Shown here piece after piece: positions 674 to 62,848 of a stretch of 64,000 nt of DNA. How positions within the stretch are numbered: the first letter of the stretch is position 1; each line of letters opens with the position of its first letter. The position numbers and the translations under genes are program-made. A model generated the notes under the pieces. It saw only the letters and a program-made list of their open reading frames with translations, was not told the origin of the DNA and ran no database searches. This DNA comes from Chitinophagaceae bacterium (GTDB lineage Bacteria; Bacteroidota; Bacteroidia; Chitinophagales; Chitinophagaceae): assembly GCA_019638475.1 (NCBI GenBank), contig JAHBTR010000005.1, forward strand, positions 1 to 64,000. Direction: 5' to 3'.

Positions 674-874
674 ATGCACACAACAGGCGGCTTGGCTATA
701 TGGCGGCTGGACGAATATATCCTCGGCTTTTTGTTCGCTATTCAGCTTCAGTCCCGGCTGACGAATAACACCGGGCAATGGAATAAACAATGAACTTTTT
801 ATTATAAATTTAGCTTCGGTTACGGGCAGACGAATCACAGATTTCCGCCACATCGCCAAGCCGTACCGTTATGG
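674..874 (+). repeat. attC-like site 1 (long type)
   Basis: The left arm is TGCACACAAC and the right core is GTTATGG at 868-874. Inner stems pair a GGCTTGGC/TGGCGG side with a CCGCCA/GCCAAG side. It belongs to the long class, with a central region of about 130 nt. It ends cassette 1. No gene lies in 674-902. Confidence 0.8.
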
Positions 875-902
875 GCAAGTGTAAAACGACAGACAACAAC
901 TA

Positions 903-1712
903 ATGAACACATATTTATTTTTATGGAACCCTAAAAAGTGGACTTGGACGACACTTGAACAAGAGATTGAACAAGTGGATTTAACAGGTCGGTGTTCTCA
1001 ACGTTGGAGTTGTGGAAATACAAAATCAATTCAACCAGGCGACAGAATTTTTTTACTCAAAGTTGGGACAGAACCAAAAGGTATTATTGCAGCAGGATTT
1101 TCGACCTCGACACCATTTTACGAAAAACATTGGAGTGGAGAAAATAAAGACACATTATACATTGACGTTGACTTTGAAGTCTTACTCAATCCAGACCAAG
1201 AACCAATCTTGACAGTTGACATATTAAAAACTGGAAATTTAGCTCAACAAAATTGGCGACCTATGGCTTCTGGAATTTCCGTTAGACCTGAACTTGTTGA
1301 CGAACTTGAAGCTGTTTGGTTTGACTTTTTGACAACTCAAAAAATTAGACACAACCCTTTTATTCCGACAGACAATAACTCTCAAAAAACTTACACCGAA
1401 GGAACACCAAATCAAATTTCAGTAACAAAATATGAACGAAATCCTTTCGCAAGAAAAAAGTGTTTAGAGCATTTCGGTTACGCTTGTGTCGTTTGCGACT
1501 TCAATTTTGAGAAAACATACGGACAAATAGGAAAAGGTTTTATTCACGTTCATCATTTGACACAAGTTGCAACTGTTGGACAGACTTATGAAATTGACCC
1601 AATAAAGGATTTACGACCTGTTTGCCCAAACTGTCATTCAATAATTCACCGACAAAAAACACCTTTGACAATAGAGGAAGTAAGAATATTAATTAACGAA
1701 AATGCAGACTAA
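903..1712 (+). CDS. EVE-like domain plus HNH endonuclease (cassette 2)
   Basis: This 269-residue protein has an N-terminal part (about 1-140; LFLWNPKKW start, QPGDRIFLLKVG and GIIAAG) resembling the EVE/PUA-like fold, which in other proteins reads modified bases. The C-terminal part (about 185-250) is an HNH nuclease with CVVC at 195-198, HVHH at 215-218 and CPNCH at 241-245, consistent with a zinc-supported beta-beta-alpha metal fold. The family knowledge suggests a modification-dependent restriction enzyme that cuts DNA carrying altered bases, acting alone as a single-gene phage defence. It is the only gene in its cassette, and the start follows about 30 nt of conserved cassette leader. The HNH call is firm; the EVE assignment is probable and its target is inferred. 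Confidence 0.85.
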   Translation: MNTYLFLWNPKKWTWTTLEQEIEQVDLTGRCSQRWSCGNTKSIQPGDRIFLLKVGTEPKGIIAAGFSTSTPFYEKHWSGENKDTLYIDVDFEVLLNPDQEPILTVDILKTGNLAQQNWRPMASGISVRPELVDELEAVWFDFLTTQKIRHNPFIPTDNNSQKTYTEGTPNQISVTKYERNPFARKKCLEHFGYACVVCDFNFEKTYGQIGKGFIHVHHLTQVATVGQTYEIDPIKDLRPVCPNCHSIIHRQKTPLTIEEVRILINENAD

Positions 1713-1725
1713 AAACAGAACACCA

Positions 1726-1859
1726 GCCCATAACATCGGTTTAGCAATATGGCGGCTGAAGTGCTTCTATAAAACATTAGTGCAAGGTTCAACGGTAGTG
1801 ATTCTATTGAACTTTTGTGCTAAAAATCCGCCACATCGCTAAGCCGCAAACCGTTATCG
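1726..1859 (+). repeat. attC-like site 2
   Basis: The left arm GCCCATAAC complements the start of its own cassette (868-876). The right core is GTTATCG at 1853-1859. Inner stems pair GGTTTAGCAATATGGCGG with CCGCCACATCGCTAAGCC. The stretch from here to 2084 holds only the cassette 3 leader and an open stretch of about 50 codons without a usual start (1903-2055). Confidence 0.85.
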
Positions 1860-2084
1860 GTAACTCTATGACGACAGTGCAAAAAATAACGAACAACGAT
1901 AAATTGAACGAAATAATGATTTTGAAAAAGCCATTTGGCTATACTTCGCAAAGGCAAAAGAGAAGCAACGCTACCCACAAACCATCGCAAGTTGCTTCAC
2001 ATTTGCCATTGCCCCAACGCACCAAGACAGTTCTGCCGACAACGACACAGTTTGACGTATAGACCTATTATTATTACAGAAAAA

Positions 2085-2579
2085 ATGATAGACACTTTCA
2101 CAGCCATAGATTTTGAAACAGCACAAGGCAAGCGTTGGAGCATTTGCCAAGTTGGACTTATACGAGTAGAGAAGGGTATAATCAAAGACCAAGTTTCTAT
2201 TTTAGTGCAACCACCAAACAACTATTACTGGGACAACTTCATAGACATTCACGGAATAACGCCACAGCAGACAGCTAACGCACCGACTTTTGACAAAGTT
2301 TGGAAACAGATTGAGCCTTTTATCAAAAATCAAAATGTTGTTGCTCATAATGGTTTTTCGTTTGACTTCCATTGCATTAGCCAGACACTGGAATATTACG
2401 GCATTACCCCACCAAACTACACAGGACATTGCACATACAGAATTTTCAGGGACAACCTTGCTTCACTTTGCAGAGAACATAAAATCCCGTTAAACCACCA
2501 TAACGCTTTATCAGATGCTATGGCTTGTGCAAAATTATTTATGATTCATTCAGGTATTTATGACAGAGCAGCAAACTGA
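2085..2579 (+). CDS. DEDDh 3'-5' exonuclease (DnaQ-like, cassette 3)
   Basis: This is a 164-residue exonuclease-fold protein. Visible motifs are FTAIDFET (Asp9, Glu11), VVAHNGFSFDFH (His88, Asp94) and HHNALSDAM (His139, Asp144), which together give the DEDDh catalytic set of DnaQ/RNase T-type exonucleases. It has no polymerase or helicase attached. I chose the ATG at 2085 because homology starts there; the upstream open frame reads through unrelated sequence. It is the first gene of a six-gene operon and its 3' end overlaps the next gene by 20 bp, so the two are probably translationally coupled. Its role in nucleic-acid degradation during defence is inferred from the neighbours. Confidence 0.85.
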   Translation: MIDTFTAIDFETAQGKRWSICQVGLIRVEKGIIKDQVSILVQPPNNYYWDNFIDIHGITPQQTANAPTFDKVWKQIEPFIKNQNVVAHNGFSFDFHCISQTLEYYGITPPNYTGHCTYRIFRDNLASLCREHKIPLNHHNALSDAMACAKLFMIHSGIYDRAAN

Positions 2580-3378
2580 AATATTATATCCCATTTTCAA
2601 AAGTTTATCCGTTCAGAAAATCAAAACTGAAACGGAGCAGATAAATCATAACAAAAATTTAATAGCAAGTTTTGAAAGAATAAAATCAATGGAAGCAAGC
2701 GAAACGCTTGCTTCCATTGATAATGTGATATGTAACTATCAATTGATTAACGAAAAAATAAAAGAGAAAAATAAAACGCACAGCGTTTTATTCAACCCTC
2801 TCACTTTTTTCCCAATTGGCGAAACAATGCACAGCTTTTTAATTGCTAACCTGATTAACCCAAATGGAAAACACGGTCAAGGCAATTTATTTCTTAAAAC
2901 ATTTCTCAAACAATTGGATATTGAAGTTTTTGAAAACGATAACTGGATTGTAACAGCAGAAACAGGCAGAATAGATATTTTGCTTAGGCGATTACATCCA
3001 CATACTGTAATTGTAATTGAAAACAAATCAAATTATGCTAGCGACCAAGAAAATCAACTTTATCGTTATTGGTTTCAAGAAATCTACTTACCTAATCTTA
3101 AGCAATTTGGCGATAAAACTATTGAGCAAACATCGAACAACAATAATTATCAAATAATCTACTTAACGCCAGCAGATTGGAAACTACCAACTGATAGTAG
3201 TATGATAAAGCCCAATGGCTATGATGCTACTTTACCTTACAGAATACCAATTGAACCTAAAATTTGGTTATTTAATAAACATATAGTAAAATGGCTTAAT
3301 GACACAGTCAAAGAATTACATGAAGAAAATCACAGATTGAGGGAATACATTAAACAATACATTGAACTTTGGACATAA
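2560..3378 (+). CDS. PD-(D/E)XK nuclease family protein (PDDEXK_4-like, cassette 3)
   Basis: This 272-residue protein has the restriction-nuclease core: IGETMHSFL (Glu88), GRIDILL (Asp139) and VIVIENKSN (Glu154, Lys156). The layout, with long N-terminal helices before the core and QENQLYRYW after it, resembles the PDDEXK_4 family. It should be a metal-dependent DNA nuclease. The start overlaps the upstream exonuclease gene by 20 bp and the next gene follows after 9 bp, so it sits firmly in the operon. Pairing of an exonuclease, an endonuclease and an AAA+ ATPase suggests an anti-phage effector set. The nuclease fold is seen; the activity and target are inferred. Confidence 0.8.
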   Translation: MTEQQTEILYPIFKSLSVQKIKTETEQINHNKNLIASFERIKSMEASETLASIDNVICNYQLINEKIKEKNKTHSVLFNPLTFFPIGETMHSFLIANLINPNGKHGQGNLFLKTFLKQLDIEVFENDNWIVTAETGRIDILLRRLHPHTVIVIENKSNYASDQENQLYRYWFQEIYLPNLKQFGDKTIEQTSNNNNYQIIYLTPADWKLPTDSSMIKPNGYDATLPYRIPIEPKIWLFNKHIVKWLNDTVKELHEENHRLREYIKQYIELWT

Positions 3379-3387
3379 TAAAACACT

Positions 3388-3981
3388 ATGAATCAAGAAC
3401 TACTTAAACAAGCAAAAGCATTATTCGATTCGCCCGAAAAATGGAACGCATTTTTAGAATTGGTTTGGCAAAAAGATGAAATCAGAAATCAATGGTTCAT
3501 CAAACTCAAAGAAGAGGCCAACAAAATATTTACAACAGATGAATTTGTTGAAGGTTGGGTTTTTAATTCATGGGGTATTTGGGATATGCACTGGTATTTA
3601 AAAGAGCATGGGGACAAGTCTATTAGCTTACTTTTAGGTTGGTGGGGCGACATGACATTGTATTGTAATCCAGAGTTTTTCGATACAACCAAAATTCATG
3701 ACCTTTTGCGAACTGAAAGATTTTCTCCCCTATTAAGTTGTTTAAACAGAATTGACAGATTTTATGAAGGTGGAAGATTGGCAATTGAAGTGCGTAATTT
3801 CTCATTTGGGAGTCCTTACGACACAAAATTCGATACAGACAGATTAGCTTGGTTTGCAGGAAATCAAACAGAAATATTTTTAGACCAAATTGTTGAGAAG
3901 GTAAACAAGTTAAGAAAAGATGAACAACTCACTATGCTCCTTAACGAACTGAATCAACTAACAAAAATAAACAGAGAATAA
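3388..3981 (+). CDS. Conserved-looking protein of unknown function (cassette 3)
   Basis: This is a 197-residue soluble protein rich in Trp and aromatic residues (WGIWDMHWYL, LGWWGDM). It has no signal peptide or membrane segment and no motif I can name. It lies 9 bp after the PD-(D/E)XK gene, and its stop overlaps the next start (TAATG), so it is translated as part of the operon. Proteins of this kind beside PDDEXK_4 nucleases may be specificity or inhibitor partners, but that is a guess. Confidence 0.75.
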   Translation: MNQELLKQAKALFDSPEKWNAFLELVWQKDEIRNQWFIKLKEEANKIFTTDEFVEGWVFNSWGIWDMHWYLKEHGDKSISLLLGWWGDMTLYCNPEFFDTTKIHDLLRTERFSPLLSCLNRIDRFYEGGRLAIEVRNFSFGSPYDTKFDTDRLAWFAGNQTEIFLDQIVEKVNKLRKDEQLTMLLNELNQLTKINRE

Positions 3982-5462
3982 TGGCACAATTAAACCACAC
4001 AAAACCATTTCCAACTTTAAATAACATTCATGTTGATGATGAAGCAACAATAATTGAATTTCTAAACACCAACAGCAAGGCAATTGGTGCTTTGAAGTAT
4101 TTAGGCTCATTTGTTGACAATCTTAAAATCAAAAATGAAATTGGAATTAAAGCAAATCTTCAATTCCTAATCGTTGAACGCGAGGAACACTATAGAGAAA
4201 GAGCAGGAAGCGACTATGTGTTTAATGAAAAATATGTCAGGGAAATTTTTGAATATAAATATGACTTACCCGATACTTTTCCAACAACGCAAACCGAAGT
4301 TGAAGAATATACAATCCCATCAACAATAGAAACACACTCTTGTAATCCAAAACAAAAGTGCTCAAAATGTCATGCTTCGGGCAGATGTAGTAGTTGTGAT
4401 GGAAGCGGCTCAAAGTCTTGCAGCAGTTGTAGTGGAACAGGTAAAAAAGAACAAAGAGACGGTAATTATGCAAATGGTAAGCCCAAGTATAAAAAAGTAG
4501 CTTGTTATTCATGTGACGGTAGAGGAAGGAAATCTTGCTCATCTTGCAATGGTTCAGGTAAATGTTATAGATGTGAAGGAAGCGGAGAAGTTATTTGTAG
4601 TAGATGCGATGGAACAAGTAAATATCAGACCTATGTTTCATTTTCAAGTTCGTTTAAGCCAGTAAACGCCAAATTTCATTTTACAGAGTATGATGAATTA
4701 AACAACCTAATACCAAATACAAAAAACAAAATTGTTTTTGACGATGATTTAATTGAGTGGGAAAATCAAAGCTCTGTTTTGTTTGACAATAAAGACAGTG
4801 CAATTCGTGCAAACAAACATTCAAAGCAGTTTATCAATGAATTAGAAACATTAGCAGGTTTAAACTCAAGTCAAAAATTTGGCAGAATACATGTTGAAAT
4901 TGAAACTGTTCCAATTACAGTAATTGATTATTCATTTGAAGACAAAGAGTATCAAATTATAATAATTGGTGAGGATAATACTATTTGCTTTAAGGAAATA
5001 CCCAAAAAACATAGCTATAAGGCAAATATCTTCAAGCGTATCAAAAATTTCTTCACCAAAAAGAAACGACAAATTGCTTTTGTGCATATCGCTTCATATA
5101 TGTTTAACGCTGATGGTTCTATGGATGAACCTGAATTGAAATTGCTCGAATTGTTTTTGAATAACATTAAACTAAAGCAAGAGGAAAAGAATCTTTTGGT
5201 TGAAAACCTTAAACAACGAATGACAGTAGATGAACTGGCACCAAAAATAAAAAATATCACAGGAGATTTAAGGGCATTAGTTTTTGCATGGCAATGCGTA
5301 ATGCAAGACGGGCAAATAAACCAAACTGAAATAGACGCTTTTATGGAATTATCGAAACTATTTAAGGTCAAAGAAGAAGAATTAGAAAAGATAAAACATA
5401 AAGCAACAAAGTTTGCTCAATTAAAGGATAACGAAATGTTAGAAGAGTATTTCAAAGCATAA
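3981..5462 (+). CDS. DnaJ-type zinc-finger protein with TerB-like domain (cassette 3)
   Basis: This 493-residue protein has a central Cys-rich block (about 121-211) with repeated CxxCxGxG units, as in the zinc-binding region of DnaJ. The J domain itself is absent. The C-terminal part (about 370-480, with FNADGSMDEPELKLLELFL and MQDGQINQTEIDAFMELS) resembles the TerB-like helical domain, which binds metal and is found in tellurite-resistance and phage-defence contexts. The start overlaps the previous stop by one base. The protein may act as a scaffold or sensor that holds the nucleases and the AAA+ ATPase together. The domains are clear; the role is inferred. Confidence 0.8.
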   Translation: MAQLNHTKPFPTLNNIHVDDEATIIEFLNTNSKAIGALKYLGSFVDNLKIKNEIGIKANLQFLIVEREEHYRERAGSDYVFNEKYVREIFEYKYDLPDTFPTTQTEVEEYTIPSTIETHSCNPKQKCSKCHASGRCSSCDGSGSKSCSSCSGTGKKEQRDGNYANGKPKYKKVACYSCDGRGRKSCSSCNGSGKCYRCEGSGEVICSRCDGTSKYQTYVSFSSSFKPVNAKFHFTEYDELNNLIPNTKNKIVFDDDLIEWENQSSVLFDNKDSAIRANKHSKQFINELETLAGLNSSQKFGRIHVEIETVPITVIDYSFEDKEYQIIIIGEDNTICFKEIPKKHSYKANIFKRIKNFFTKKKRQIAFVHIASYMFNADGSMDEPELKLLELFLNNIKLKQEEKNLLVENLKQRMTVDELAPKIKNITGDLRALVFAWQCVMQDGQINQTEIDAFMELSKLFKVKEEELEKIKHKATKFAQLKDNEMLEEYFKA

Positions 5463-5465
5463 ACA

Positions 5466-7130
5466 ATGAAATCGGAAATTTTTATAGCAGCGGAAACAGG
5501 TAATATAAGTGCTTTGCGAACAGCATTAAGTAAGGGGGCTGATATTAACCAAGTTGACGAAAATGGAGCAACTCCACTAATGATTGCATGTAAACATGGT
5601 CATACGGCTTTGGTAAAATTTATACTTAGCAGAGGTGCGGAAATAAATATAGCAGACAATAAAGGCATGACAGCCGTTAAGAATGCAGAACTTACAAACA
5701 AAGATGAACTTATTGAATTGTTTCAGGAGTATGTTGACTTAAATTCTAACGCTGATTATTCCAATCTTCGAGAACATTTCATCTCAATTATAGATAATCT
5801 GTTTCCAGTATCTAAGCAGATTGAACCAATAGTAAAAGATTTAAACGAGGAACAACGAATGAAAATCAAAAACGATTTGATAAAAATACTACTGTTGTTC
5901 AGAAACGAAGATGAAATTTCTATTTACGATGGTTTTGGATTTGGTCTTTCAATTTTAGTCCTTTATTACCCTGACAAATACGCTGAAATGTTCAATAACA
6001 TTAAGCAACTTTCCGAAAATAAACAGATAGCTTTTGCAAAAGAGATTCTGCAATCTGAAGAAAAACATTTTGAGAAAAGTGATATTTCTTTTCAAAACTT
6101 TGTTTTAGAATCACCAAACGTCATTAGTTCGGATAATGCAGATAAAATAAAAAAGGCATTCTATGAATATGCAGAAATAATTGTAAAAGCAGACGGAGTA
6201 GTAACCGAGGAAGAATCAAAAAACTTAAAGTTCCTCTCTAAAACTTTTTTCAAAGAGCAGAAAACAGAAAGCAAACAGCAACAAGCTAAAGAGTTTTCAA
6301 AAAGTGAATTAGACTCTATTCTTGAAGAGCTTAACAATCTTGTCGGAATGGAGAATATCAAAAACGATATTCGTTCACTCATAAATATCATCAATGTAAA
6401 CAAATTAAGACGCAAAGAAGGTTTGCCAGAACAAAAGCTATCCCTACATTCTGTTTTCATAGGTCCTCCAGGAACAGGAAAAACAACAATTGCAAGAATA
6501 TTATCCAACATATACCATTCATTAGACCTTTTACCTGAAATCAACTTTGTTGAAACCGACAGAAGCGGATTAGTTGCTGGTTATGTCGGGCAGACGGCAA
6601 TCAAAACAGATGAAATTATCAATAAAGCAAGAAATGGAATCTTGTTTATAGACGAAGCATATACTCTAAAACGTAGTGATTCAGATAGTGATTATGGTCA
6701 GGAGGCAATTGACATTCTTCTTAAAAGAATGGAAGATTACAGAGACAATTTAATAATAATTGTTGCCGGTTATGAAAAGGAAATGAACCATTTCATTAAC
6801 TCAAATCCGGGACTGAAATCAAGATTCAATAGGTATTTTCAGTTTAAAGATTATCAACCATCTGAACTAACGGAAATATATAGAAGAATGGCAGACAAAT
6901 CAGGTTTTATTTTGAAAGAGGATGCACTAAAAACACTCAACGATTTATTTGAACATCTTTGTTCTAATAAGGATGACAGGTTTGGAAATGCCCGTTTAGC
7001 AAGAAATATTTTTGAAAAGACCTTTGAAAAACACGCAAATAGAACCGCAAGCATTGCTCCTATTACTAGGGAGATTTTAACAACTATTGAGGCAGAAGAT
7101 ATACCAGTTGAACAATTTTCAGTAAACTAA
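5466..7130 (+). CDS. Ankyrin-TerB-CbbX-type AAA+ ATPase (cassette 3)
   Basis: This 554-residue protein starts with two or three ankyrin repeats (about 1-90, with NGATPLMIACKHGHTALVKFIL). A TerB-like stretch follows (about 225-260, with KADGVVTEEESKNLKFLSK). The C-terminal part is an AAA+ ATPase of the CbbX/SpoVK group, with Walker A GPPGTGKT at 333-340, Walker B ILFIDEAY at 392-399 and a GLKSRFNRYF arginine-finger region. Such ATPases remodel protein or nucleoprotein targets as hexamers. It follows the zinc-finger gene by 3 nt. The ankyrin part probably recognises a partner and the motor probably drives the nuclease components, but this is inferred. Confidence 0.85.
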   Translation: MKSEIFIAAETGNISALRTALSKGADINQVDENGATPLMIACKHGHTALVKFILSRGAEINIADNKGMTAVKNAELTNKDELIELFQEYVDLNSNADYSNLREHFISIIDNLFPVSKQIEPIVKDLNEEQRMKIKNDLIKILLLFRNEDEISIYDGFGFGLSILVLYYPDKYAEMFNNIKQLSENKQIAFAKEILQSEEKHFEKSDISFQNFVLESPNVISSDNADKIKKAFYEYAEIIVKADGVVTEEESKNLKFLSKTFFKEQKTESKQQQAKEFSKSELDSILEELNNLVGMENIKNDIRSLINIINVNKLRRKEGLPEQKLSLHSVFIGPPGTGKTTIARILSNIYHSLDLLPEINFVETDRSGLVAGYVGQTAIKTDEIINKARNGILFIDEAYTLKRSDSDSDYGQEAIDILLKRMEDYRDNLIIIVAGYEKEMNHFINSNPGLKSRFNRYFQFKDYQPSELTEIYRRMADKSGFILKEDALKTLNDLFEHLCSNKDDRFGNARLARNIFEKTFEKHANRTASIAPITREILTTIEAEDIPVEQFSVN

Positions 7131-7134
7131 AACA

Positions 7135-7413
7135 ATGGAAAACATAGCGATATATTTTGGACTTTTTCTTTCGTTAGTTGCTGCAATTATAGCAGCAATA
7201 TTAGCGTGGAAGTTTGCAAACTTCTTTATTGCCAGACGTGAGTTTTATGTAAAAAGTCCTTACGACATTTTAATGAAAAAAATTGGATGGTGTGTATTTT
7301 GGTTTTTGTTTACACTGACAGTTGGCATTAAAATAGTTACTCCCAAACAACACATAGACAATAACGTGAAATCAAGTAAGCAATCAACAACTAAACATAA
7401 AGACAAACCATGA
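7135..7413 (+). CDS. Small two-span membrane protein (cassette 3)
   Basis: This 92-residue protein has two predicted membrane helices (about 4-30 and 48-65) and a basic, polar C-terminal tail. It has no known motif. It starts 4 nt after the AAA+ gene and closes the operon, and a hairpin of the second repeat family begins just after it. A membrane partner at the end of a nuclease/ATPase operon could anchor the complex or act as an effector, but the sequence does not show which. Confidence 0.7.
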   Translation: MENIAIYFGLFLSLVAAIIAAILAWKFANFFIARREFYVKSPYDILMKKIGWCVFWFLFTLTVGIKIVTPKQHIDNNVKSSKQSTTKHKDKP

Positions 7414-7423
7414 AACCACGCTT

Positions 7424-7488
7424 TTGCACTCACATTTGTCTTTGCTCCCACTCACATGCAAAACAAGCAAAGCCAAAAGAGAGTGCAA
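7424..7488 (+). repeat. ACA/AGA hairpin, copy A
   Basis: The outer stem TTGCACTC (7424-7431) pairs perfectly with GAGTGCAA (7481-7488). Then come the ACA/AGA internal loop, TTTG:CAAA, one mismatch, and inner stem CTTTGCT (7440-7446) with AGCAAAG (7466-7472). It lies right after the last gene of cassette 3. Nothing else is visible between it and site 3. Confidence 0.75.
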
Positions 7489-7561
7489 GCCAACGCACTT
7501 GGACGACAGTTAAAGCTAACAATATGCTATCAAGACCGACACAGACGAACGAAAGAAGAGC

Positions 7562-7699
7562 TACCGATAACCGCAGTTTGGCGTCATGCGGGGTGCAGTG
7601 CTTAAATTCAAGTGTAGTTTTTCGAACCAACTTTAGTGCAAGGGTGACAGCTTTGTGCTCCGTAATCCCGCACGAACGCCAAGCTGCCAACCGTTATAG
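7562..7699 (+). repeat. attC-like site 3
   Basis: The left arm TACCGATAAC complements the start of cassette 3, 5.7 kb upstream (1853-1862). The right core is GTTATAG at 7693-7699. Inner stems pair CAGTTTGGCGT with ACGCCAAGCTG. Confidence 0.85.
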
Positions 7700-7751
7700 G
7701 CAACCAAGCGACACCATTACACCAAAAGATGAACAATAGTAAAAACGAACA

Positions 7752-8489
7752 ATGACAAGTCTGTTGAACGACATACAAACAGAAAGCGACAACAAGAAAT
7801 TGGAAGAGTTGTTTCTTGCAATTTATTTCAACGACTTAGAAAAAGTTATTGATTTCAAAAAACAATTTCCCGAACTCTATGCAAAAAAGGAAAAGTTTCA
7901 AATAGACGAAAACACGACCTTTAACTTAATAAATTTGACTTTTTTCAACCAGACAATATGGTTTGACGGAGATTGGATAGACGACATAAAACCATTAGTT
8001 GAAAAGCACAGACAACGAACTAAACAAATGTTAGACTTTTGGCGTGCAGAACTTGGACAACAAGAAATCCATAGACAAATTGAATACAATCAATATCACG
8101 AACATTTTTTTTGTGACGACCCAAATGATTTTGAAGAAATCTTATCAGACCCAATTTCAATATATTTGGAAAAAGGGTTTAGAGAAATTGATTTAAAACT
8201 ATACAACCGTGCCCAATGTTTTGACTTTGCAGAAGCGAAAAAGCTATTAGAACAAGGTGCTAAACTTGACATTCACTTTGAAAATGACGGAGATAGTAGC
8301 ACCATTAGACGTATTTCAGACGAAGTTTCATTTTTGGCGACTTGTGAAGTTATTCCAAAGTATGAAGTATTTGAAACCAAAGGCTACAATAGAAATTTTG
8401 ACATAAGTAGAATGTTTGGCGACATACTTGGTTTGGCGGCACACGAAGAAATGTATCACTTATTGAAAAAATATGACAAAGAAGAATAA
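7752..8489 (+). CDS. Ankyrin-like protein of unknown function (cassette 4)
   Basis: This 245-residue soluble acidic protein is the only gene of cassette 4. The N-terminal part (FLAIYFNDLEKVIDFKKQFPELY) and a later part (FDFAEAKKLLEQGAKLDIHFENDGD) have the spacing of degenerate ankyrin repeats. It has no signal peptide. Small acidic ankyrin proteins in cassettes are often immunity-like or binding proteins, but no specific family is recognised. Confidence 0.65.
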   Translation: MTSLLNDIQTESDNKKLEELFLAIYFNDLEKVIDFKKQFPELYAKKEKFQIDENTTFNLINLTFFNQTIWFDGDWIDDIKPLVEKHRQRTKQMLDFWRAELGQQEIHRQIEYNQYHEHFFCDDPNDFEEILSDPISIYLEKGFREIDLKLYNRAQCFDFAEAKKLLEQGAKLDIHFENDGDSSTIRRISDEVSFLATCEVIPKYEVFETKGYNRNFDISRMFGDILGLAAHEEMYHLLKKYDKEE

Positions 8490-8499
8490 GTAATTTGGC

Positions 8500-8597
8500 T
8501 GCCTATAACACGGGTTTGGCGTCAGGCGGGCTGACGTTCAAGCGTGAAAGTTCCTGCGGACTTTCCCGCCCGAACGCCAAGCCCCGAACCGTTAGCA
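8500..8597 (+). repeat. attC-like site 4 (short GC-rich type)
   Basis: The left arm TGCCTATAAC complements 7693-7702. The right core is GTTAGCA at 8591-8597. It is a short variant whose inner stem pairs CGTGAAAGTTCC with GGACTTTCCCG. It is almost identical to site 6. Confidence 0.85.
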
Positions 8598-8618
8598 CCA
8601 ATTATAAATGACAGACCA

Positions 8619-9389: not shown

Positions 9390-9393
9390 TTAT

Positions 9394-9570: not shown

Positions 9571-9571
9571 C

Positions 9572-9706: not shown

Positions 9707-9728
9707 GGCATTTTAGAACGACAACACA

Positions 9729-10748: not shown

Positions 10749-10772
10749 GGACGATATTTAACCAAATAGAAA

Positions 10773-52773: not shown

Positions 52774-52778
52774 AAAAA

Positions 52779-53375: not shown

Positions 53376-53380
53376 GGGCA

Positions 53381-53449: not shown

Positions 53450-53489
53450 AATGGTAGGACAACCGAACCAAACGATAGAATTATAGAGA

Positions 53490-54305: not shown

Positions 54306-54319
54306 CGTACGACAAAGAA

Positions 54320-54461
54320 CCACTGGCTATAACGGGCAGTTTGGCAAAATGGCGGATTTAGTGCTAAATTCAACGGTAGTTCTTCGATTAAACTTTTGTG
54401 CAAAATTTGAGCTGACTTTCCCTGATTTCCGCCACTTCGCCAAGCTGCAAAAACGTTATGT
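54320..54461 (+). repeat. attC-like site 25
   Basis: The left arm CCACTGGCTATAAC has no intact partner because the start of cassette 25 was lost. TTATAG at 53481-53486 may be a remnant. The right core is GTTATGT at 54455-54461. The stem pairs GCAGTTTGGCAAAATGGCGG with CCGCCACTTCGCCAAGCTGC. Confidence 0.8.
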
Positions 54462-54489
54462 GGCATTCCTTAACAACAACAAAATTAAC

Positions 54490-55263: not shown

Positions 55264-55266
55264 ACA

Positions 55267-55468
55267 CCACATAACAAGCGCATTGGCAATAGCAGGGCTG
55301 ACGTGCATTTCATCAGCTTTTTGTTCGCTAATGGGCTGTAGTTCCGGGCTGAAAATTATCTATTGAGCAACAGAATAAAAATATCAACTTTTTGTTCGTT
55401 TACTGTACTTTTGTTCCGGCTGAAAGTTCATTGAATGCCCAGCCATCGCCAATGCGTAAACGTTATGC
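55267..55468 (+). repeat. attC-like site 26 (long type)
   Basis: The left arm CCACATAAC complements 54455-54463. The right core is GTTATGC at 55462-55468. The stem pairs CGCATTGGCAATAGCAGGGC with GCCCAGCCATCGCCAATGCG. The long centre resembles site 19. Hairpin copy H and the cassette leader fill the space up to 55641. Confidence 0.85.
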
Positions 55469-55553
55469 GTCACCCTATGACCGACAGTGCTAACATTAAA
55501 CAGACAGAACAAATGAACAGAAATACATACAAGACAGAAAAGCCAACCGCACA

Positions 55554-55615
55554 TTTAGCACATTTGGTTTTGCCCGACACACAAACCGCCCCTTCGCAAA
55601 ACCAAAAGAACTAAA
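55554..55615 (+). repeat. ACA/AGA hairpin, copy H
   Basis: Outer stem TTTAG (55554-55558) pairs with CTAAA (55611-55615), with a C/A mismatch next to it. After the ACA/AGA loop, TTTGGTTTTGC (55563-55573) pairs with GCAAAACCAAA (55596-55606). It opens the cassette 27 module. Confidence 0.75.
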
Positions 55616-55641
55616 TTTACCCAACGCACCATTTAGACAGT

Positions 55642-58600
55642 ATGGAATTAACAGAGAAACTTTTAACAGAATTACAAAGACGACTGAAAATCGGGAATCG
55701 CAGAGGCGTTCATTTAAACGCTATTCCTGCAAATTCAAGATATAAGTTCGACTTAAATAGACTTTCTCATATTGACAAAAACCTGCCCGACAACTTCGTA
55801 AAAGCATTACTTTCTGAATTACCACTAAAGTTTAGAATTAGTTGGAAAGATAATGTGCCTGACCTAAACTCACTTTTTGAGGAAGACCAATCGCAATTGG
55901 TAAGAATTACAAAAGCATTTGAAAATCTTATCAATCAGACCGAAGCAATTGAATCTGAAAAAGGCATAAATACTTTCGGTTTTGGCTTTCCAATTTTAGC
56001 AAGACGAGACAGAGCAGACAACAAATTGACCGTTGCTCCTATTCTGATTTGGTCGTTACGAATCAAAAGAACTAAAGAGTTCAATACATGGGAAATATTA
56101 AGAAATGAAGAAGACCCAATTTACATAAATGAAGTTTTAATAAATCATTTACAAAGCGATGCAAATGTTGAAATAGAACAGATACCAAGTGATATGCTTG
56201 ACGATGGACTAATCAATAAAAATGAACTTATAGAAATTTGCTCAAAGCTAATTAGAACTGTAAACACTACAACGCCAGACGATTTAGAAGAAACATTCAA
56301 AAAGAAACTTGATAAAATTACATCTATCGGGGATAAAGCCCATTATGATAAACTTCCGCTAAATTCATCAAACTCCTTTATTGACTTTGGTGGATTGTTT
56401 TCAATTTTTGAAGTCCAAAAGCAAAACATTATTAATGACTACGGCAACCTTATGGAGCTTGAAGGAATTAATATTGACCTTGAAGATTTAGAAGGACATT
56501 CGTTTCAACCGATTTCATCGGTTGAAACCGACCCTTCTCAACAAAGTATTTTACATTCCTTAGAAGCCACAAGAAATATTTTAATCCAAGGTCCTCCAGG
56601 AACAGGAAAAAGTCAAACGCTTACAGCGGTTCTTATCAATGCACTTGAAAACAATAAGAAAACAATTGTAGTATGTGAAAAAAGAACAGCACTTGAGGTT
56701 TTACATAATGCACTTATTGAAAAAGGCTTGAATTATCATTGTGTATTAGTTCGAGATATTGTAAAAGACCGCAAAACGGTTGTTGATTCTGTTAGAGACC
56801 GAGTTGATAACTCTGAATACAAACGATACCGATACAGCTACTCAAAAGAATCTTTGGACAATTTGATTCAAAAAGCCAAAGATTTAATCACCAACATAAA
56901 TAACAAGCATCAAAAACTTGATAAAAAACTAATTGGAAATAAATCTTGGTCTGACGTTGTTGGAAATTTATTAACCGAAATAAAGGGCAACACAGACGAC
57001 AGCAATTTGAATATTGAAAAGACCTTGTTCAATTATTCAACGCAGGAACTTAACACTTTGCTTGACCTTGTTCAAAAAGGTCAAATACTCTATACGGAAT
57101 TTTTACCAATAGAATCAACATCTTTCATCAATTCTTTAAAACTGGTTGGCGACAATCCGTATCTAATTGAGCAAAGTATAAATGAGGACTTCGATGTTTA
57201 TTCAAAGCAACTTGAACAAATAAAAATTCTTTTAGAAGCAAACAGAAGTGAATTTATAAGTTTAAGAAAATCAGAACTGAAAAATCAAATTACTTCAATT
57301 GGAAATTGTATTGAAAACACAATAGCGAAGGAAAATGAATTGAGTGCTTTGGTTTCAAACGCTAAAGATGATTTCAGCAATTTTAGAAATATTGAATTTG
57401 CCCAACAGCTTGAAAGCATATCTCAAATTCTTTCTCAGATTGATACCATTTTCAGTAACAACCAAAACAATCCAGACCTAACAAATAGCGACAAAGTCAA
57501 TGGTTTGGGTTATAAATTTTTATCTGTTTTTTCTAAAAGTAAGAAACAAACCATTGCCGACCACATTGAATTGCAAAGCAACTCTGCAAAACTTGAAGAG
57601 TGTTTGAAAATCTCAAAAGATTTTGCAACACTCAATTTTAGTGGCAGTTTGGAAGCAAAGAAAAATTCTTTGCCAACACTGAAAACTGAAATAACGAGTA
57701 TTAAAAACAGTTTTAGCGACAAAATTGAAAACGAGTTTGCTTTATTCAATCTTAATTCTGTATTAGATACAAATTATAACGGCAAACATTTTCACGCTAT
57801 ACAATCGGTAATAAACAATTCAGATAATTCCGAAAAATTTAGAACAAAACTGCAATCAATTCAAACCACTTTCAAAAGTTATCTATCTGAAATAGATTCA
57901 TCATTTCAAGCACTTTCAAAAGAATTAGCAGAAAGCAAAGACATTAAACTGAACCACACATTTGATAAGCCTTTCCCAGAGAATAAGGAAGCGGTGTCAG
58001 AATTGAAAGCAAAAATAGAATTGATTAAAACAGACTTCGATTCTAAAATTCAAAATGAATTTCAACAAATAAGTTTGCTAAAAGCAAATCCCAACGAGAT
58101 TGAAATTAAGAGCCTTCCAATACTTCAAGAAAAAGTAAATGCTTTAGCCGACAAAATAAAAGGCGATAGTTGGACGGTTGAAAAAGTGAAATTCACGGAA
58201 TTTTACAAATTTATTTCAGACATCGAAACGCTAATCCGTAACAAAAACGAATACTTTAAAGCAGAGAAAGATTTATTTACAATAGAATTTAAGTGGTTTC
58301 AGTTTTATAATGGCTTGTCAGAAATAAACAAAACAATTGTAAATGAATTAAAACCAAAAAGCAATTGGAGAAAATCATTTTTGGTGTTCTATCTTAACTC
58401 AATGCTTGTAAATTCTGCAAACTTGGATTTACCAACAAATGACGATGAACACAAGGAACTTGACAAAACATTAAACGGAGTTGAAAAGGAACAATTAAAT
58501 TTCATCAAAGAATTTTGGTTTTCAAAGCAGATAGACGCTACAAGAGAATTTGAACAAAAAAACGTAACCCTTTCAGTTGAGAATTTATACAACAAGCGAA

Positions 58601-60468
58601 GTAGTAACCGATTCAAAAGACTTTCATTAAGGCAAATTGTTCAGTATGATGCAAATCTTTTCACTAACTTTTTTCCAATAATTCTGACTTCGCCTGATGT
58701 GGCAAGTAATTTATTCAAAGGAATGAATGGATATTTTGACATCGTAATGTTTGACGAAGCCAGTCAATTACGACTTGAAGATAACTTGCCAGCAATTTTG
58801 AAAGGAAAGCAAATTATTATTGCAGGAGACGAGCATCAAATGCCACCATCAAATTATTTTAGTAAAGTTTTTGACGGTGCAGTTGAAGATGAAGAAGATT
58901 TAGAAGAAGAAAATGAAATTGTTGTTGACAAGGACAATATTCTGCTGTCTTGTGAATCTTTGTTGGATTTTGGTTCAGAACTAAATTTTCAAAGAAAACA
59001 CTTGGATTTTCACTATCGTTCAAGGCATCCATTTTTAATTGACTTTTCTAACTATGCCTTTTACAATCAAAGACTAAAACCTTTACCAAACAACTTTGAT
59101 TATGTGCCGATAAAATATGTTCAAGTAAACGGAACATTTTCAGAGCATACAAATGAAGCAGAAGCTGAAATGGTTTTATCAATCATTGACAAAAATATTA
59201 ACAGATTACCAAACGGAGAATATCCGACCGTTGGAATTGCAACGTTTAATATTGCTCAACGAAATTTGATTAAGAGCAAAATATTAGAAAGACAAAAGTT
59301 TTCAAAATTCGAGGAGTTCAACGCTAAAATTCAAGAGTTAGAGGAAAAAGGAATGTTTATCAAAAACTTGGAGAACATTCAAGGAGATGAAAGGGATGTA
59401 ATTATTCTTTCTACAACATACGGAATAGGAAAAGACAGAAAATTTGCTCAAAGATTTGGCCCGATAAATCATTCCAAAGGTTACAAACTATTAAACGTAA
59501 TTATTACACGAGCAAAGTTTAAAGTTTATTGCTGTTCTTCTATTCCAGAACAAGTATTTATGAACTATAAAGAATACTTGACAACAGAAGGTTCAAATAA
59601 TAAAAGAGCCGTTTTATACGCATATTTAGCCTATTGCAAAGCAGTAAGCGAATCTAATAATGACTTGCGTTTATCAGTCCTTACAACACTTGCAGAGAAT
59701 ACAACAAAGAGTGCTGGTTTTGATTCATTCAAGGGAGGAGATTTAGAATCGCCCTTTGAAGAAGAAGTTTATCAAAGTTTAGCCGACCATTTAGGAACTG
59801 AAAAGTTAATTCCTCAATTACAGTTTGCAGGATTTAGAATTGATATTGTTTATGACCCAAAAGTAGTTGGAGTGCCTAAAGTTGCTATTGAATGTGACGG
59901 AGCAAAATATCATTCAAGCAGAGAAGCATATTTGTATGACCGACACAGGCAAAAAATATTAGAGAATCACGGTTTTGTGTTTCATAGAATTTGGAGCACA
60001 AATTGGTGGCGTAATTCAAGTAGAGAAACAACCAAACTTGTTGACTATATTAAACAAATTGAATCAACAACAAATCCAAACTACAAAGACCATTCTCATA
60101 CGGCATTTGCTTTTACGGACGACATTGTAATTATTGAGGACTATGTTTCGCAGACATCTTTCATTGACATTGAAAAGGACAATGAAACAATTCAGGCAAT
60201 TGAAAAAGTTGCTCCTGCTCATACAAAGATTTTTACAGATGAGGTAAAACTAAACAGTAAAGTGCAAGTAAAGTATGTGAATAATGGCAAGGACATTAGC
60301 ATTCATATTGTATCAACAGAGAATAACAAAAATGACAAGTCAGACGGTATTCAAAAGGTTTATTACAAATCACCTTTAGCTCATTCCTTACTTGGACAAA
60401 CAGTTGGCGACATTGTAAAAATCGGCAACCTTGACAATTTTGTAGAAATATTAAAAATAACAAACTAA
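55642..60468 (+). CDS. Giant superfamily 1 helicase with C-terminal PD-(D/E)XK nuclease (cassette 27)
   Basis: This 1608-residue protein has a helicase core split by a long coiled-coil insertion. Walker A ILIQGPPGTGKSQTL lies near 314-328, coiled coil fills about 400-1000, Walker B MFDEASQLRLED near 1036, then IIIAGDEHQMPP and NIQGDERDVIILSTTYG. The C-terminal nuclease (about 1370-1465; FEEEVYQSLADHL, GFRIDIVYD, VAIECDGAKYHSSREAYLYDRHRQKILENHGF) fits the MTES_1575/Vsr-like type. Helicase-nuclease giants of this type act as single-gene phage defences such as Hhe. Fold firm, defence role inferred. Confidence 0.85.
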   Translation: MELTEKLLTELQRRLKIGNRRGVHLNAIPANSRYKFDLNRLSHIDKNLPDNFVKALLSELPLKFRISWKDNVPDLNSLFEEDQSQLVRITKAFENLINQTEAIESEKGINTFGFGFPILARRDRADNKLTVAPILIWSLRIKRTKEFNTWEILRNEEDPIYINEVLINHLQSDANVEIEQIPSDMLDDGLINKNELIEICSKLIRTVNTTTPDDLEETFKKKLDKITSIGDKAHYDKLPLNSSNSFIDFGGLFSIFEVQKQNIINDYGNLMELEGINIDLEDLEGHSFQPISSVETDPSQQSILHSLEATRNILIQGPPGTGKSQTLTAVLINALENNKKTIVVCEKRTALEVLHNALIEKGLNYHCVLVRDIVKDRKTVVDSVRDRVDNSEYKRYRYSYSKESLDNLIQKAKDLITNINNKHQKLDKKLIGNKSWSDVVGNLLTEIKGNTDDSNLNIEKTLFNYSTQELNTLLDLVQKGQILYTEFLPIESTSFINSLKLVGDNPYLIEQSINEDFDVYSKQLEQIKILLEANRSEFISLRKSELKNQITSIGNCIENTIAKENELSALVSNAKDDFSNFRNIEFAQQLESISQILSQIDTIFSNNQNNPDLTNSDKVNGLGYKFLSVFSKSKKQTIADHIELQSNSAKLEECLKISKDFATLNFSGSLEAKKNSLPTLKTEITSIKNSFSDKIENEFALFNLNSVLDTNYNGKHFHAIQSVINNSDNSEKFRTKLQSIQTTFKSYLSEIDSSFQALSKELAESKDIKLNHTFDKPFPENKEAVSELKAKIELIKTDFDSKIQNEFQQISLLKANPNEIEIKSLPILQEKVNALADKIKGDSWTVEKVKFTEFYKFISDIETLIRNKNEYFKAEKDLFTIEFKWFQFYNGLSEINKTIVNELKPKSNWRKSFLVFYLNSMLVNSANLDLPTNDDEHKELDKTLNGVEKEQLNFIKEFWFSKQIDATREFEQKNVTLSVENLYNKRSSNRFKRLSLRQIVQYDANLFTNFFPIILTSPDVASNLFKGMNGYFDIVMFDEASQLRLEDNLPAILKGKQIIIAGDEHQMPPSNYFSKVFDGAVEDEEDLEEENEIVVDKDNILLSCESLLDFGSELNFQRKHLDFHYRSRHPFLIDFSNYAFYNQRLKPLPNNFDYVPIKYVQVNGTFSEHTNEAEAEMVLSIIDKNINRLPNGEYPTVGIATFNIAQRNLIKSKILERQKFSKFEEFNAKIQELEEKGMFIKNLENIQGDERDVIILSTTYGIGKDRKFAQRFGPINHSKGYKLLNVIITRAKFKVYCCSSIPEQVFMNYKEYLTTEGSNNKRAVLYAYLAYCKAVSESNNDLRLSVLTTLAENTTKSAGFDSFKGGDLESPFEEEVYQSLADHLGTEKLIPQLQFAGFRIDIVYDPKVVGVPKVAIECDGAKYHSSREAYLYDRHRQKILENHGFVFHRIWSTNWWRNSSRETTKLVDYIKQIESTTNPNYKDHSHTAFAFTDDIVIIEDYVSQTSFIDIEKDNETIQAIEKVAPAHTKIFTDEVKLNSKVQVKYVNNGKDISIHIVSTENNKNDKSDGIQKVYYKSPLAHSLLGQTVGDIVKIGNLDNFVEILKITN

Positions 60469-60480
60469 TGCCGACACTTC

Positions 60481-60548
60481 GCAGTCATACACATTTGCAA
60501 GCCACACAAGCCAACGCACAGACCAAAGCTTGCAAAAGAGTATGCCTG
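60481..60548 (+). repeat. ACA/AGA hairpin, copy I
   Basis: Outer stem GCAGTCATAC (60481-60490) pairs with GTATGCCTGC (from 60540) with one mismatch. After the ACA/AGA loop, TTTGCAAGC (60494-60502) pairs with GCTTGCAAA (60528-60536). The loop holds ACACAAGCCAACGCAC. It closes the cassette 27 module just after the helicase gene. Confidence 0.8.
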
Positions 60549-60609
60549 CCCAACCGCACAGACACAGCGACATTGGACAGACAAGCAACAACCGAGAAAG
60601 AAGGGCGAA

Positions 60610-60742
60610 CGCATAACAGCGGTTTGGCAAAAGTGGCGGTTTCGTTCTCCGCAGACAGTTTTGTGGTTAATCAAACATTGGTTCTCCGCATCAAATTTAG
60701 TGGTAAAAATCGCCACCTTCGCCAAGCCGCAAACCGTTGGCA
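60610..60742 (+). repeat. attC-like site 27
   Basis: The left arm CGCATAAC complements 55462-55469. The right core is GTTGGCA at 60736-60742. The stem pairs GCGGTTTGGCAAAAGTGGCG with CGCCACCTTCGCCAAGCCGC. Confidence 0.85.
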
Positions 60743-60766
60743 GTAATTTTATGTAACCGACACTGA

Positions 60767-61885
60767 ATGAAAAAAAATGACCAAATAGATTTCTTGCGAA
60801 AAAAGAGTTACGTCTTTCAAAGTGAAATTGGACAAGGCGGAACAGGTAAAACCATTCTTATTAAAGACGAATTAATAAACGAAGTTTTTGTTTGCAAAAA
60901 ATATTCTCCATACTACCCTGAACACAAAGACCTTTACTTCAAATATTTTTTAGACGAAATCAAGCTCCTACACAAGATTTACCATAAAAATATAGTCAGA
61001 GTTTTCAATTATTACATATATCCAGAGCAATTGACTGGATATATACTTATGGAATTCGTTAAAGGACAAAATATAGATGAATATATTTCAGAAAATCCAG
61101 ACAGATTGAATGACTTATTTGTTCAGACCATAAATGGTTTTACATATTTAGAAGAGAATAAAATTCTTCATCGTGACATTAGACCTGACAATATCCTTGT
61201 AACAGAACAAGGAATAACGAAAATAATTGACTTTGGATTTGGAAAATCAATTGACTTTGATAACACAGATAATAGCATTTCTCTAAACTGGCGTTATCCA
61301 AAACCTGATGAATTCAATCAAAAAATCTATGACACAAAGACAGAAATATATTTTGTAGGAAAGTTGTTTGAAGAAATCCTAGTAAACTTTGAAAATATAG
61401 ATTTCAAATATACCGGATTAGTTTCAAGAATGATTGCAAGCTACTCTGAACGAATTCCTGCCTTTTTTGATGCTTACAGAGAAATTGTCAAAGAAGCCAA
61501 ATCAGAAATAAATTTTTCTGATACTGAGAAAACTACATATAGAGAATTTGCTGATAGCCTTGTAGGATTAGTTTCTAAAATGCCATACAACACAAAATAC
61601 AAAAGAGACATTAACCAAATAATTAAGTCTTTAGAAGAAGTCTATAAAAACTCTCTACTAGAAGTACATATACAAAACAATAATAAATTGACAGCTATAT
61701 TTTTGGATGGTCAGTATTCGTATTTTCCTAAAAAGCTATTCAAGGTTGACATTTTAAATTCGATGATTAAGTTGCTGAAATCAAGTTCTGATGATAGAAG
61801 GAAAGTGATTTTAAACAACCTATGGGAAAGATTTGATAAAGTCGAAAAATATTATGAACAAAATGATGACGACTTACCATTTTAG
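60767..61885 (+). CDS. Ser/Thr protein kinase (cassette 28)
   Basis: This 372-residue protein has an N-terminal kinase domain: IGQGGTGKT (Gly loop), FVCKKY (Lys near 48), HRDIRPDNIL (catalytic loop near 135-144) and IIDFGFGKS (near 154). The C-terminal 130 residues form a helical then strand-rich tail. There is no membrane anchor or sensor domain. A lone kinase in a defence-rich array could trigger abortive infection by phosphorylating host proteins, as described for some phage-defence kinases. Enzyme class firm, purpose inferred. Confidence 0.85.
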   Translation: MKKNDQIDFLRKKSYVFQSEIGQGGTGKTILIKDELINEVFVCKKYSPYYPEHKDLYFKYFLDEIKLLHKIYHKNIVRVFNYYIYPEQLTGYILMEFVKGQNIDEYISENPDRLNDLFVQTINGFTYLEENKILHRDIRPDNILVTEQGITKIIDFGFGKSIDFDNTDNSISLNWRYPKPDEFNQKIYDTKTEIYFVGKLFEEILVNFENIDFKYTGLVSRMIASYSERIPAFFDAYREIVKEAKSEINFSDTEKTTYREFADSLVGLVSKMPYNTKYKRDINQIIKSLEEVYKNSLLEVHIQNNNKLTAIFLDGQYSYFPKKLFKVDILNSMIKLLKSSSDDRRKVILNNLWERFDKVEKYYEQNDDDLPF

Positions 61886-61894
61886 AAGAAAAAC

Positions 61895-62029
61895 TACTGC
61901 CAACAGCCGTTTTGCAAAAGCGGGGGTTTCGTTCTTCTATGGCAATGAAGTGCTAAATCTAAGTTTTGTGCATCTAATAAAGTTTAGTGCTAAAAATCCC
62001 CGCCTTCGGCAATACCCAGACCGTTGGCA
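61895..62029 (+). repeat. attC-like site 28 (hybrid arms)
   Basis: The left arm TACTGCCAAC complements 60736-60745. The right core is GTTGGCA at 62023-62029. The left inner arm (CCGTTTTGCAAAAGCGGGG) and right inner arm (CCCCGCCTTCGGCAATACCCAG) pair poorly at the base, so the two halves seem to come from different sites. Confidence 0.8.
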
Positions 62030-62053
62030 GCAATTTTACCCGACACAGTCCGT

Positions 62054-62569
62054 ATGCAAAACGTAACGACAGACAACAGAAAATGGTATGTATTGACAAC
62101 CAAGCCGAAAGCTGAAAAACAAGTAAGCAAACGGTTGACAGAAAACCGTGTTGAAAATTTTCTGCCGTTACAGCGACAGTTGAGAACTTGGCACGACCGA
62201 AAAAAATGGATAGAAACACCACTTTTCAACTCATACATTTTTGTAAAGACAGAAGACAAATTACGAAGTAAAGTTTTTGAAGTTGGCGGACTTATAAAAT
62301 ACGTTTCCATTGGCGGACAAATCTGTATTTTGACAGAACAAGAAGTAGAGCGGGTAAGACGGCTTTGCAGTTACAGCGAACCCGTAACAGTTGGACACGA
62401 AAACTTTGAAAGAGGAGAAGAAGTAGAAATTTTGGAAGGACATTTTGTTGGGTTTTGTGGACAACTTCTCGAAAACGGAGACAAACATAAATTGAAAATT
62501 TCCATTGCAGGACTTGGTTGTTTTGCAACGGTGTTTATAGACAAAAATATTGTGCGGAAAATTTTGTAA
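62054..62569 (+). CDS. NusG-like (UpxY-type) transcription factor (cassette 29)
   Basis: This 171-residue protein has the NusG N-terminal domain (KWYVLTTKPKAEKQVSKRLTENRVENFLPLQRQLRTWHDRKKWIETPLFNSYIFV) and a C-terminal KOW-like part (FERGEEVEILEGHFVGFCGQL). In Bacteroidota such NusG paralogues (UpxY) prevent early termination in long operons. Here it is alone in its cassette, with no polysaccharide operon nearby, so its target is elsewhere. I chose the ATG at 62054. Confidence 0.85.
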   Translation: MQNVTTDNRKWYVLTTKPKAEKQVSKRLTENRVENFLPLQRQLRTWHDRKKWIETPLFNSYIFVKTEDKLRSKVFEVGGLIKYVSIGGQICILTEQEVERVRRLCSYSEPVTVGHENFERGEEVEILEGHFVGFCGQLLENGDKHKLKISIAGLGCFATVFIDKNIVRKIL

Positions 62570-62693
62570 GTAAATCCTGACACAGTATTTTTAACGACAT
62601 AAAAAAAGGTTGGTAACTTTTGGACTGTTACTGACGATGGCGAAGCCGTGAATAAGATGAAAGGACAAACAAAAACATCTGGGGACAAAAACC

Positions 62694-62828
62694 TGCTGCC
62701 AACATCGGCTTGCTACAAGCGGGGCGACAGTGGTAAATTGAACATTTGTGCTTCTAATAAACATTTGTGCTATGTTGAAAGTTAGTGCTTCTAAGCCCCG
62801 CCTGACAGCAAGCCGCCGGACGTTATAG
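62694..62828 (+). repeat. attC-like site 29
   Basis: The left arm TGCTGCCAAC complements 62023-62032. The right core is GTTATAG at 62822-62828. The stem pairs CGGCTTGCTACAAGCGGGGC with GCCCCGCCTGACAGCAAGCCG. Confidence 0.85.
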
Positions 62829-62848
62829 GGCATTTTAAGTAAACAATT

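Follow-up and report, generated by a model that had tools for sequence, protein, structure and literature searches.

Evidence for an integron-type cassette system of Bacteroidota with a separate recombinase lineage and a distinct attC architecture

The first 64,000 nucleotides of contig JAHBTR010000005.1 (hereafter the window; the contig is C8, 222.5 kb) in the genome assembly of a Chitinophagaceae bacterium (GCA_019638475.1, 2.59 Mb in 12 contigs) carry a long array of gene cassettes which, with a probability of roughly 0.87, belongs to a chromosomal integron-type system of Bacteroidota. Judged from the sequences, the cassettes are likely to be circular when free and are likely re-inserted by a tyrosine recombinase, encoded on another contig (C7), that lacks the additional domain of the integron integrase IntI. 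The predicted system resembles an integron and shows the platform features that we examined, and it departs from the features that we examined as typical of canonical IntI. What appears to be new is the combination, in Bacteroidota, of an integron-type organisation with a separate recombinase lineage and a distinct attC architecture.

Sites were listed by scanning for complementary L boxes between AAC and GTT, and a covariance model built from 30 of them (28 on C8 and 2 on C7) was used to scan the contig to 144 kb; the sites at 37259 and 65956 were found by the box scan but not by the covariance model. A total of 42 attC-like sites (AAC...GTT) of 83-192 bp were found on C8 between 682 and 95147, all on the + strand and three with non-canonical cores, and the array on this contig spans about 95,000 bases. 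Among them, 29 lie in the window and delimit 28 complete cassettes. Both sides have changed in 11 of the 13 predicted pairs of the attC stem, and the cassettes stand in one orientation, each closed by a foldable attC. The distance from GTT to AAC has a median of 1129 bp and a maximum of 9456 bp and reaches 3 kb or more in 11 of 41 cassettes, one of which (81386-88003) has unmatched ends and may be two cassettes. Contig C7 carries attC-like sites over positions 1-10241, all on the minus strand and reading toward the contig start. That start falls within an attC body (116 of 124 positions of the model), and C8 opens 4 nt inside a cassette whose end arm fits. Most simply, C7 and C8 would be parts of a single array, about 105 kb long and split at a repeat. 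A lone attC-like site was also found outside the array (G000:C6:125145-125269).

For each cassette, the bases past GTT were compared with those preceding its own closing AAC, the latter taken as their reverse complement. A sequence-only reading of the window had proposed that each cassette start is the reverse complement of its own end, as in circular cassettes joined at GTT, and had given three example arm pairs, all of which were found where it placed them. Complementarity beyond the core extends over 6-7 consecutive bases in 27 of the 28 complete cassettes of the window, the single exception being, as that reading had said, the damaged cassette at 53474 (GATAGAA). Over 10 positions in each of the 41 cassettes of C8, 323 of 410 positions match, against 157.8±9.3 when the pairs are permuted (maximum 203 in 20,000 shuffles; z 17.7). 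For 36 of the 41 starts none of the 42 ends matches better than the own end, which is the unique best for 27; the two arms of a single site, as they stand in the array, match each other no better than random pairs. The R stem is formed by a cassette's own start and own end. In cassette 39926-40543 the core is altered at both ends together (GTA...TAC instead of GTT...AAC) with the arms still matching.

Own-end pairing as such is ordinary integron behaviour. Among class 1 resistance cassettes, 6 of 12 have a start-end pair of 7 to 12 bases, and in true-IntI arrays from other classes of the phylum the own start matches over 8-14 bases at 16 of 20 weak site-model matches (GTT included in both cases), the 16 sites coming from 8 stretches. 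The earlier interpretation was right; since both kinds of array share the rule, it is not new by itself. The rule gives a simple tool for finding exact cassette bounds and attI.

The new element lies farther along the arm, which ended at about 10 bases in the earlier reading and reaches about 15 when a second block is included. Position 11 matches in 0 of 41 cassettes; in 39 of 41 (a bulge of 1 nt being allowed) the start reads A there and the reversed end G, and past it at least 3 of the following 4 bases match in 39 of 41 cassettes, where shuffles gave a mean of 11.4 and a maximum of 22 in 2000. In 16 extra cassettes (14 from other genomes and 2 from C7, all with an arm run of at least 5) position 11 again matches in none, and the four bases after it match at 0.75-0.94. 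The matching fraction is 0.69 at position 11 and 0.31-0.38 at the following four in the IntI arrays, and 0.50 and 0-0.33 in class 1, so that neither control set has the fixed mismatch followed by a second block; this combination is not ordinary integron behaviour. Read on the top strand, the pair at position 11 is an A·C mismatch; on the bottom strand it becomes a G·T wobble, which makes the arm a single stem of about 15 bp.

Folding of the bottom strand gave mean energies of -31.8 kcal/mol for arms joined to their own end, -24.2 for the form in the array and -24.1 for a random partner, and the own-joined form is steadier than the in-array form in 37 of 41 cases. The sites depart from those of canonical IntI in the core, GTTRRRY fitting only 3 of 41 starts, and in the single extrahelical bases on the L'' side of the bottom strand, which are absent from 36 of 41 folds and present in 5. 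True-IntI sites of the same phylum have at least one such base in 16 of 16 folds, and class 1 sites in 6 of 6 (by a similar fold method); in 15 of the 16 IntI folds (arrays L188, L194, L195, L196, L199, L201, L202 and L204) there are three, evenly spaced. This array and the IntI arrays share a one-sided spacer bulge between arm and L box, usually of 3-4 nt, which therefore does not tell them apart.

The tyrosine recombinase is an open reading frame of 376 residues at C7:11302-12429 (+), facing away from the sites. It matches the integron integrase profile TIGR02249 in two stretches with 191 bits, under the cut-off of 265. PF00589 scores 135.6 bits, and the catalytic R-K-H..R-H-Y pattern is kept in 76 of 79 relatives. 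The motifs KG.K.R and H.LRHS lie 64 residues apart in all 72 relatives in which the spacing could be measured, against 106 residues in 11 IntI rows from the phylum, of which two represent one gene; at 21 further IntI loci the motifs used gave no frame. With 42 residues fewer between the motifs, the C7 type lacks the additional domain of canonical IntI. The top Foldseek match of its model (pLDDT 82.8, pTM 0.51) is the integron integrase 2a3v, and in VIA-align XerA, XerH and IntIA score level. A tree placed the new type (26 rows) and IntI (11 rows) in separate clades with support of 100/98 and 100/100; its root would allow either loss or original absence of the insert. An N-terminal extra domain with a W motif is found in 72 of the 79 relatives. 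According to PMC3053210, K209, Y210, W219, P232, H240 and H241 of VchIntIA are among the residues that contact extrahelical bases. By our reading of the alignment, these residues would fall in or beside the missing insert, and an enzyme without the insert agrees with sites mostly without extrahelical bases. More distant recombinases with the W motif also share a stretch with such sites (G013:C1, G032:C57, G016:C18, G054:C20 and G028:C45; loci L085, L077, L076, L078 and L082, respectively), the array being downstream and co-directional in the first four genomes. The integrase family seems to extend beyond the clade to which this genome's enzyme belongs.

Seven such recombinases, used as queries against named genomes, gave at least 565 coding stretches, of which 80 loci were kept, all labelled as Bacteroidota lineages except one metagenome-assembled genome labelled Phycisphaerales. 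Sites were found at 35 of the 80 loci (25 divergent arrays and 10 co-directional ones), and 81 of 82 sites, overlapping matches removed, point away from the recombinase. A whole-genome comparison gave at least 298 site matches in 40 of 59 genomes, with at most 60 candidates scored per genome. When the arm of the first attC was used to look for its partner near the recombinase, a start was found on C7 and in 14 of 16 loci tried among the 25 divergent ones, roughly 64-230 bp from the recombinase and with 8-10 matching bases including GTT. Each of these starts follows a motif like TTGCGTATATTTGNGN, the candidate attI motif, which in leave-one-out searches ranked first in 14 of 15 loci. At the 10 co-directional loci, where attI was named by the motif alone, a 10-base arm match (GTT included) was seen in six, a match of 6-7 bases in two and none in two. 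The attI prediction of the own-end rule is largely borne out in other genomes, and the view of the cassettes as integron-like units bounded at GTT, already put forward by the sequence-only reading, is upheld both by these predicted starts and by the steadier own-joined folds. On C7 the attI lies at 11146-11162, the exact motif occurring at two places in the genome, one of them here; attI stands beside the integrase, with the first cassette at it and the array pointing outward.

Own-end arms and attC-like hairpins are general integron features, the assembly is in 12 contigs and the array stops at contig ends. In principle, the array could therefore go with a canonical IntI whose gene was not assembled, and the recombinase on C7 could be a neighbour unrelated to it. 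We hold this to be very unlikely, as among the 59 genomes, to which this one belongs, IntI above the cut-off occurs in 1 (G052, which has no site-model match), the C7 type has outward-pointing sites at 35 of 80 loci together with the attI motif, and true-IntI sites have the extrahelical bases that most sites here lack. Of the 296 genomes sampled from the whole phylum, 84 have an IntI that passed the cut-off, and 83 of those belong to other classes.

Several observations weigh against the integron-type reading or parts of it. The site model was trained on sites of this same genome; 45 of the 80 recombinase loci have no match to it (23 of these have less than 1.5 kb upstream), among them 13 of the 36 loci with at least 4 kb upstream. 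No attI was found in L092 and L116 among the 16 loci, it was missed in L140 and L163 among the 10, L117 ranked only 19th in the leave-one-out search, and two of the 15 loci in that search, L100 and L103, are identical in their upstream sequence and cannot count as independent. The attI part TATATTTG resembles what we take to be the Bacteroidota -7 promoter box, and conservation of attI may partly be a promoter signal; attI may also carry a cassette promoter. The bottom strand outfolds the top in just 31 of 41 cases, and the one-sided bulge between arm and L box, which was first read as a special mark, stands beside true IntI as well. In other arrays an arm run of at least 5 was found in 14 of 24 consecutive pairs from other genomes and in 2 of 3 on C7, 8 more pairs with non-canonical cores having been dropped and the site lists being incomplete. 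Beyond the window the first block is weaker in 4 of 13 cassettes (69742, 77068, 81386 and 94233), with cassette 81386-88003 matching at just 2 of 10 positions.

Such cassettes, together with the damaged one, make five of 41 that would suit a fossil array, in which formerly mobile cassettes keep their arms as inherited relics and do not recombine today. This seems unlikely to us, because most arms are exact over 6-7 bases past the core, the recombinase frame is open with its catalytic pattern kept among the relatives, and one core is compensated.

The hairpin bodies and the arms seem to vary separately. Arms match at 0.49 where the adjoining bodies share at least 85% identity (19 pairs, with a maximum of 97%) and at 0.43 where they are dissimilar (r 0.12). 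The 187-bp body at 37259..37445 recurs at 10 places in nine other genomes, 88-93% identical (248 searched), and the cargo 37443-37971 that follows it is found in another genus with 87% identity (G016:C19:57220-57739; L211, L235). That copy stands alone between two other frames, runs from GTT to one base past AAC and has no site-model match within 15 kb, a further point against the integron-type reading. The lone copy, and arms that barely track the bodies, would fit transposon-like elements with terminal inverted repeats of 15 bp, between which the attC-like bodies are separate repeats. Of the alternatives weighed here we give this one the least credence: the units form a head-to-tail series in which a hairpin body separates each from the next, the first units begin at the attI motif, just one lone copy was found, and homogenised bodies with selection on the arms would explain the decoupling.

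In the integron-type system that we favour, almost every cassette would open with about 15 bases which, save at one fixed position, are reverse-complementary to its own end, and each would probably leave as a circle joined at GTT, which the tyrosine recombinase without the additional domain likely re-inserts at attI. Arms and hairpin would fold in the single bottom strand, where position 11 may help to mark the strand or the bound in place of the extrahelical bases of known sites, and the N-terminal W-motif domain of the recombinase may read the longer arm. Recombination presumably joins G and TT; this crossover is assumed by analogy with known integrons, since CGTT is common to nearly all sites and hides the exact G^TT bond. 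While the hairpin bodies are homogenised along the array, the arms would stay matched through selection for a foldable circular attC.

The nearest known counterparts include the sedentary chromosomal IntI integrons of Vibrio and Xanthomonas, of which class 1 is the mobile form. The present system is like them in an integrase by attI, head-to-tail cassettes, hairpin attC with AAC/GTT cores, own-end arm complementarity and much cargo of unknown function, and unlike them in a recombinase without the additional domain and under the TIGR02249 cut-off, in arms of about 15 bp with a fixed wobble, in the scarcity of extrahelical bases and GTTRRRY cores, and in cassettes of up to 9.5 kb with five genes; according to PMC12444791, cassettes generally hold one open reading frame, sometimes two. 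The IntI integrons in other classes of the phylum share outward sites of about 110-125 bp, the own-end match and the one-sided spacer, but have the insert and the extrahelical bases and no second block. Xer/XerA-type recombinases (NF040815; PDB 5hxy, 4a8e) are similar in the fold and spacing of the catalytic domain (64 residues here, 68 in the XerC of this genome), but differ from the C7 type in lacking the extra N-terminal W-motif domain and the location beside attI and attC arrays.

We somewhat favour the broader view that these features mark a second integron lineage of Bacteroidota, in which the enzyme has no domain for reading extrahelical bases, the sites lack such bases and have instead some 15 bp of arm marked by a wobble, single cassettes move operon-sized defence systems, and bodies and arms are separable. 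If so, its recombinase either never had the domain or has lost it, and the separable bodies and cargo arms would be a handle on how cassettes are made. A lineage that has the anatomy of an integron but not the domain, and whose sites mostly lack the extrahelical bases that true-IntI sites of the phylum keep, would show which features integron recombination requires and which are peculiar to IntI; a paper by Messier and Roy (2001) is said to call the additional domain, in its title, necessary for activity. The same domain has been used to pick out integron integrases, as PMC2426708 indicates. Integrons in Bacteroidetes are described in PMC9024848 as rare, with at first only integrases without cassettes and then one complete integron, in Salinibacter ruber; the IntegronFinder authors, in the same paper, used an IntI-specific profile with a threshold and reported one complete integron in Bacteroidetes proper. 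Such a profile and threshold fit with a new type being missed. The second lineage would escape IntI-based searches, the integrons of Bacteroidetes would then be partly overlooked, and multi-gene defence sets in single cassettes would make the arrays defence libraries.

Table 1. Features of the window. Sites are attC-like sites found with the site model unless stated, cassettes are the stretches that the sites bound, and cargo is named by profile.
Feature	Position	Strand	Remarks
Partial first cassette	1..684	+	contig begins 4 nt inside; end arm GTTGTGTGCATTT fits start TGTGCAATT
Site 1 (AAC..GTT)	682..869	+	37.5 bits
Cassette	867..1734	+	HNH protein
Site	1732..1855	+	
Cassette, 5.7 kb	1853..7571	+	PDDEXK_4 (PDC-S26), TerB/DnaJ-like, ankyrin-AAA, others
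Site	7569..7695	+	
Cassette	7693..8509	+	protein without Pfam match
Site, short	8507..8593	+	87 bp
Cassette	8591..9581	+	arms GTTAGCACCA / TGGTGCTAAC
Site	9579..9702	+	
Cassette	9700..10368	+	methyltransferase
Site, short	10366..10452	+	
Cassette, 5.3 kb	10450..15775	+	HTH, HSDR_N/N6 methylase, specificity subunit (restriction-modification type)
Site	15773..15896	+	
Cassette, short	15894..16416	+	
Site, short	16414..16496	+	83 bp; 35.2 bits
Cassette	16494..17623	+	WG-repeat protein
Site	17621..17744	+	
Cassette, 9.5 kb, five genes	17742..27198	+	C5 DNA methylase, MzaB, MzaC, MzaD and MzaE homologues; arm GTTACAGGTA paired by own end
Site	27196..27320	+	
Cassette	27318..30411	+	EcoRI-type methylase, unknown, GmrSD/HNH restriction enzyme-like
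Site	30409..30533	+	
Cassette	30531..33839	+	N6 methylase, specificity subunit
Site	33837..33962	+	
Cassette	33960..34867	+	
Site	34865..34989	+	
Cassette	34987..35730	+	DUF805 RNA motif
Site	35728..35851	+	
Cassette	35849..37261	+	
Site, long	37259..37445	+	187 bp; box scan; 88-93% identical in nine other genomes
Cassette	37443..37971	+	glyoxalase; entire cargo 87% identical in G016
Site, long	37969..38155	+	27.7 bits
Cassette	38153..38979	+	PLD-like domain
Site	38977..39100	+	
Cassette	39098..39804	+	
Site	39802..39928	+	right core GTA
Cassette	39926..40543	+	compensated core GTA...TAC
Site	40541..40729	+	left core TAC
Cassette	40727..41728	+	
Site	41726..41851	+	
Cassette	41849..42429	+	
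Site	42427..42550	+	
Cassette	42548..45721	+	N6 methylase
Site	45719..45842	+	
Cassette, 6.2 kb	45840..51997	+	includes AbiEi and AbiEii homologues
Site	51995..52119	+	
Cassette	52117..53389	+	cNMP-binding protein, flavodoxin-like
Site, damaged	53387..53476	+	right core GAT
Cassette, damaged start	53474..54333	+	GIY-YIG
Site	54331..54457	+	
Cassette	54455..55275	+	trypsin-like (under Pfam cut-off)
Site, long	55273..55464	+	192 bp
Cassette, 5.2 kb	55462..60617	+	helicase/nuclease (PDC-S37)
Site	60615..60738	+	
Cassette	60736..61904	+	protein kinase
Site	61902..62025	+	
Cassette	62023..62703	+	NusG-like
Site	62701..62824	+	
Cassette	62822..64000	+	continues to contig position 64352

Cargo was named by comparing 46 frames of the window with Pfam and 20 of these with PADLOC. 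By these profiles, several cassettes would carry restriction-modification genes, AbiEi/AbiEii homologues and candidate defence proteins, and several packages hold sets of predicted anti-phage genes. Two restriction-modification cassettes are about 70% alike in DNA over stretches of their methylase and specificity genes, at 11086-14279 and 30625-33823, and the DUF805 RNA motif (RF03081, 81.5 bits) lies at 35016-35082, just past the start of its cassette.

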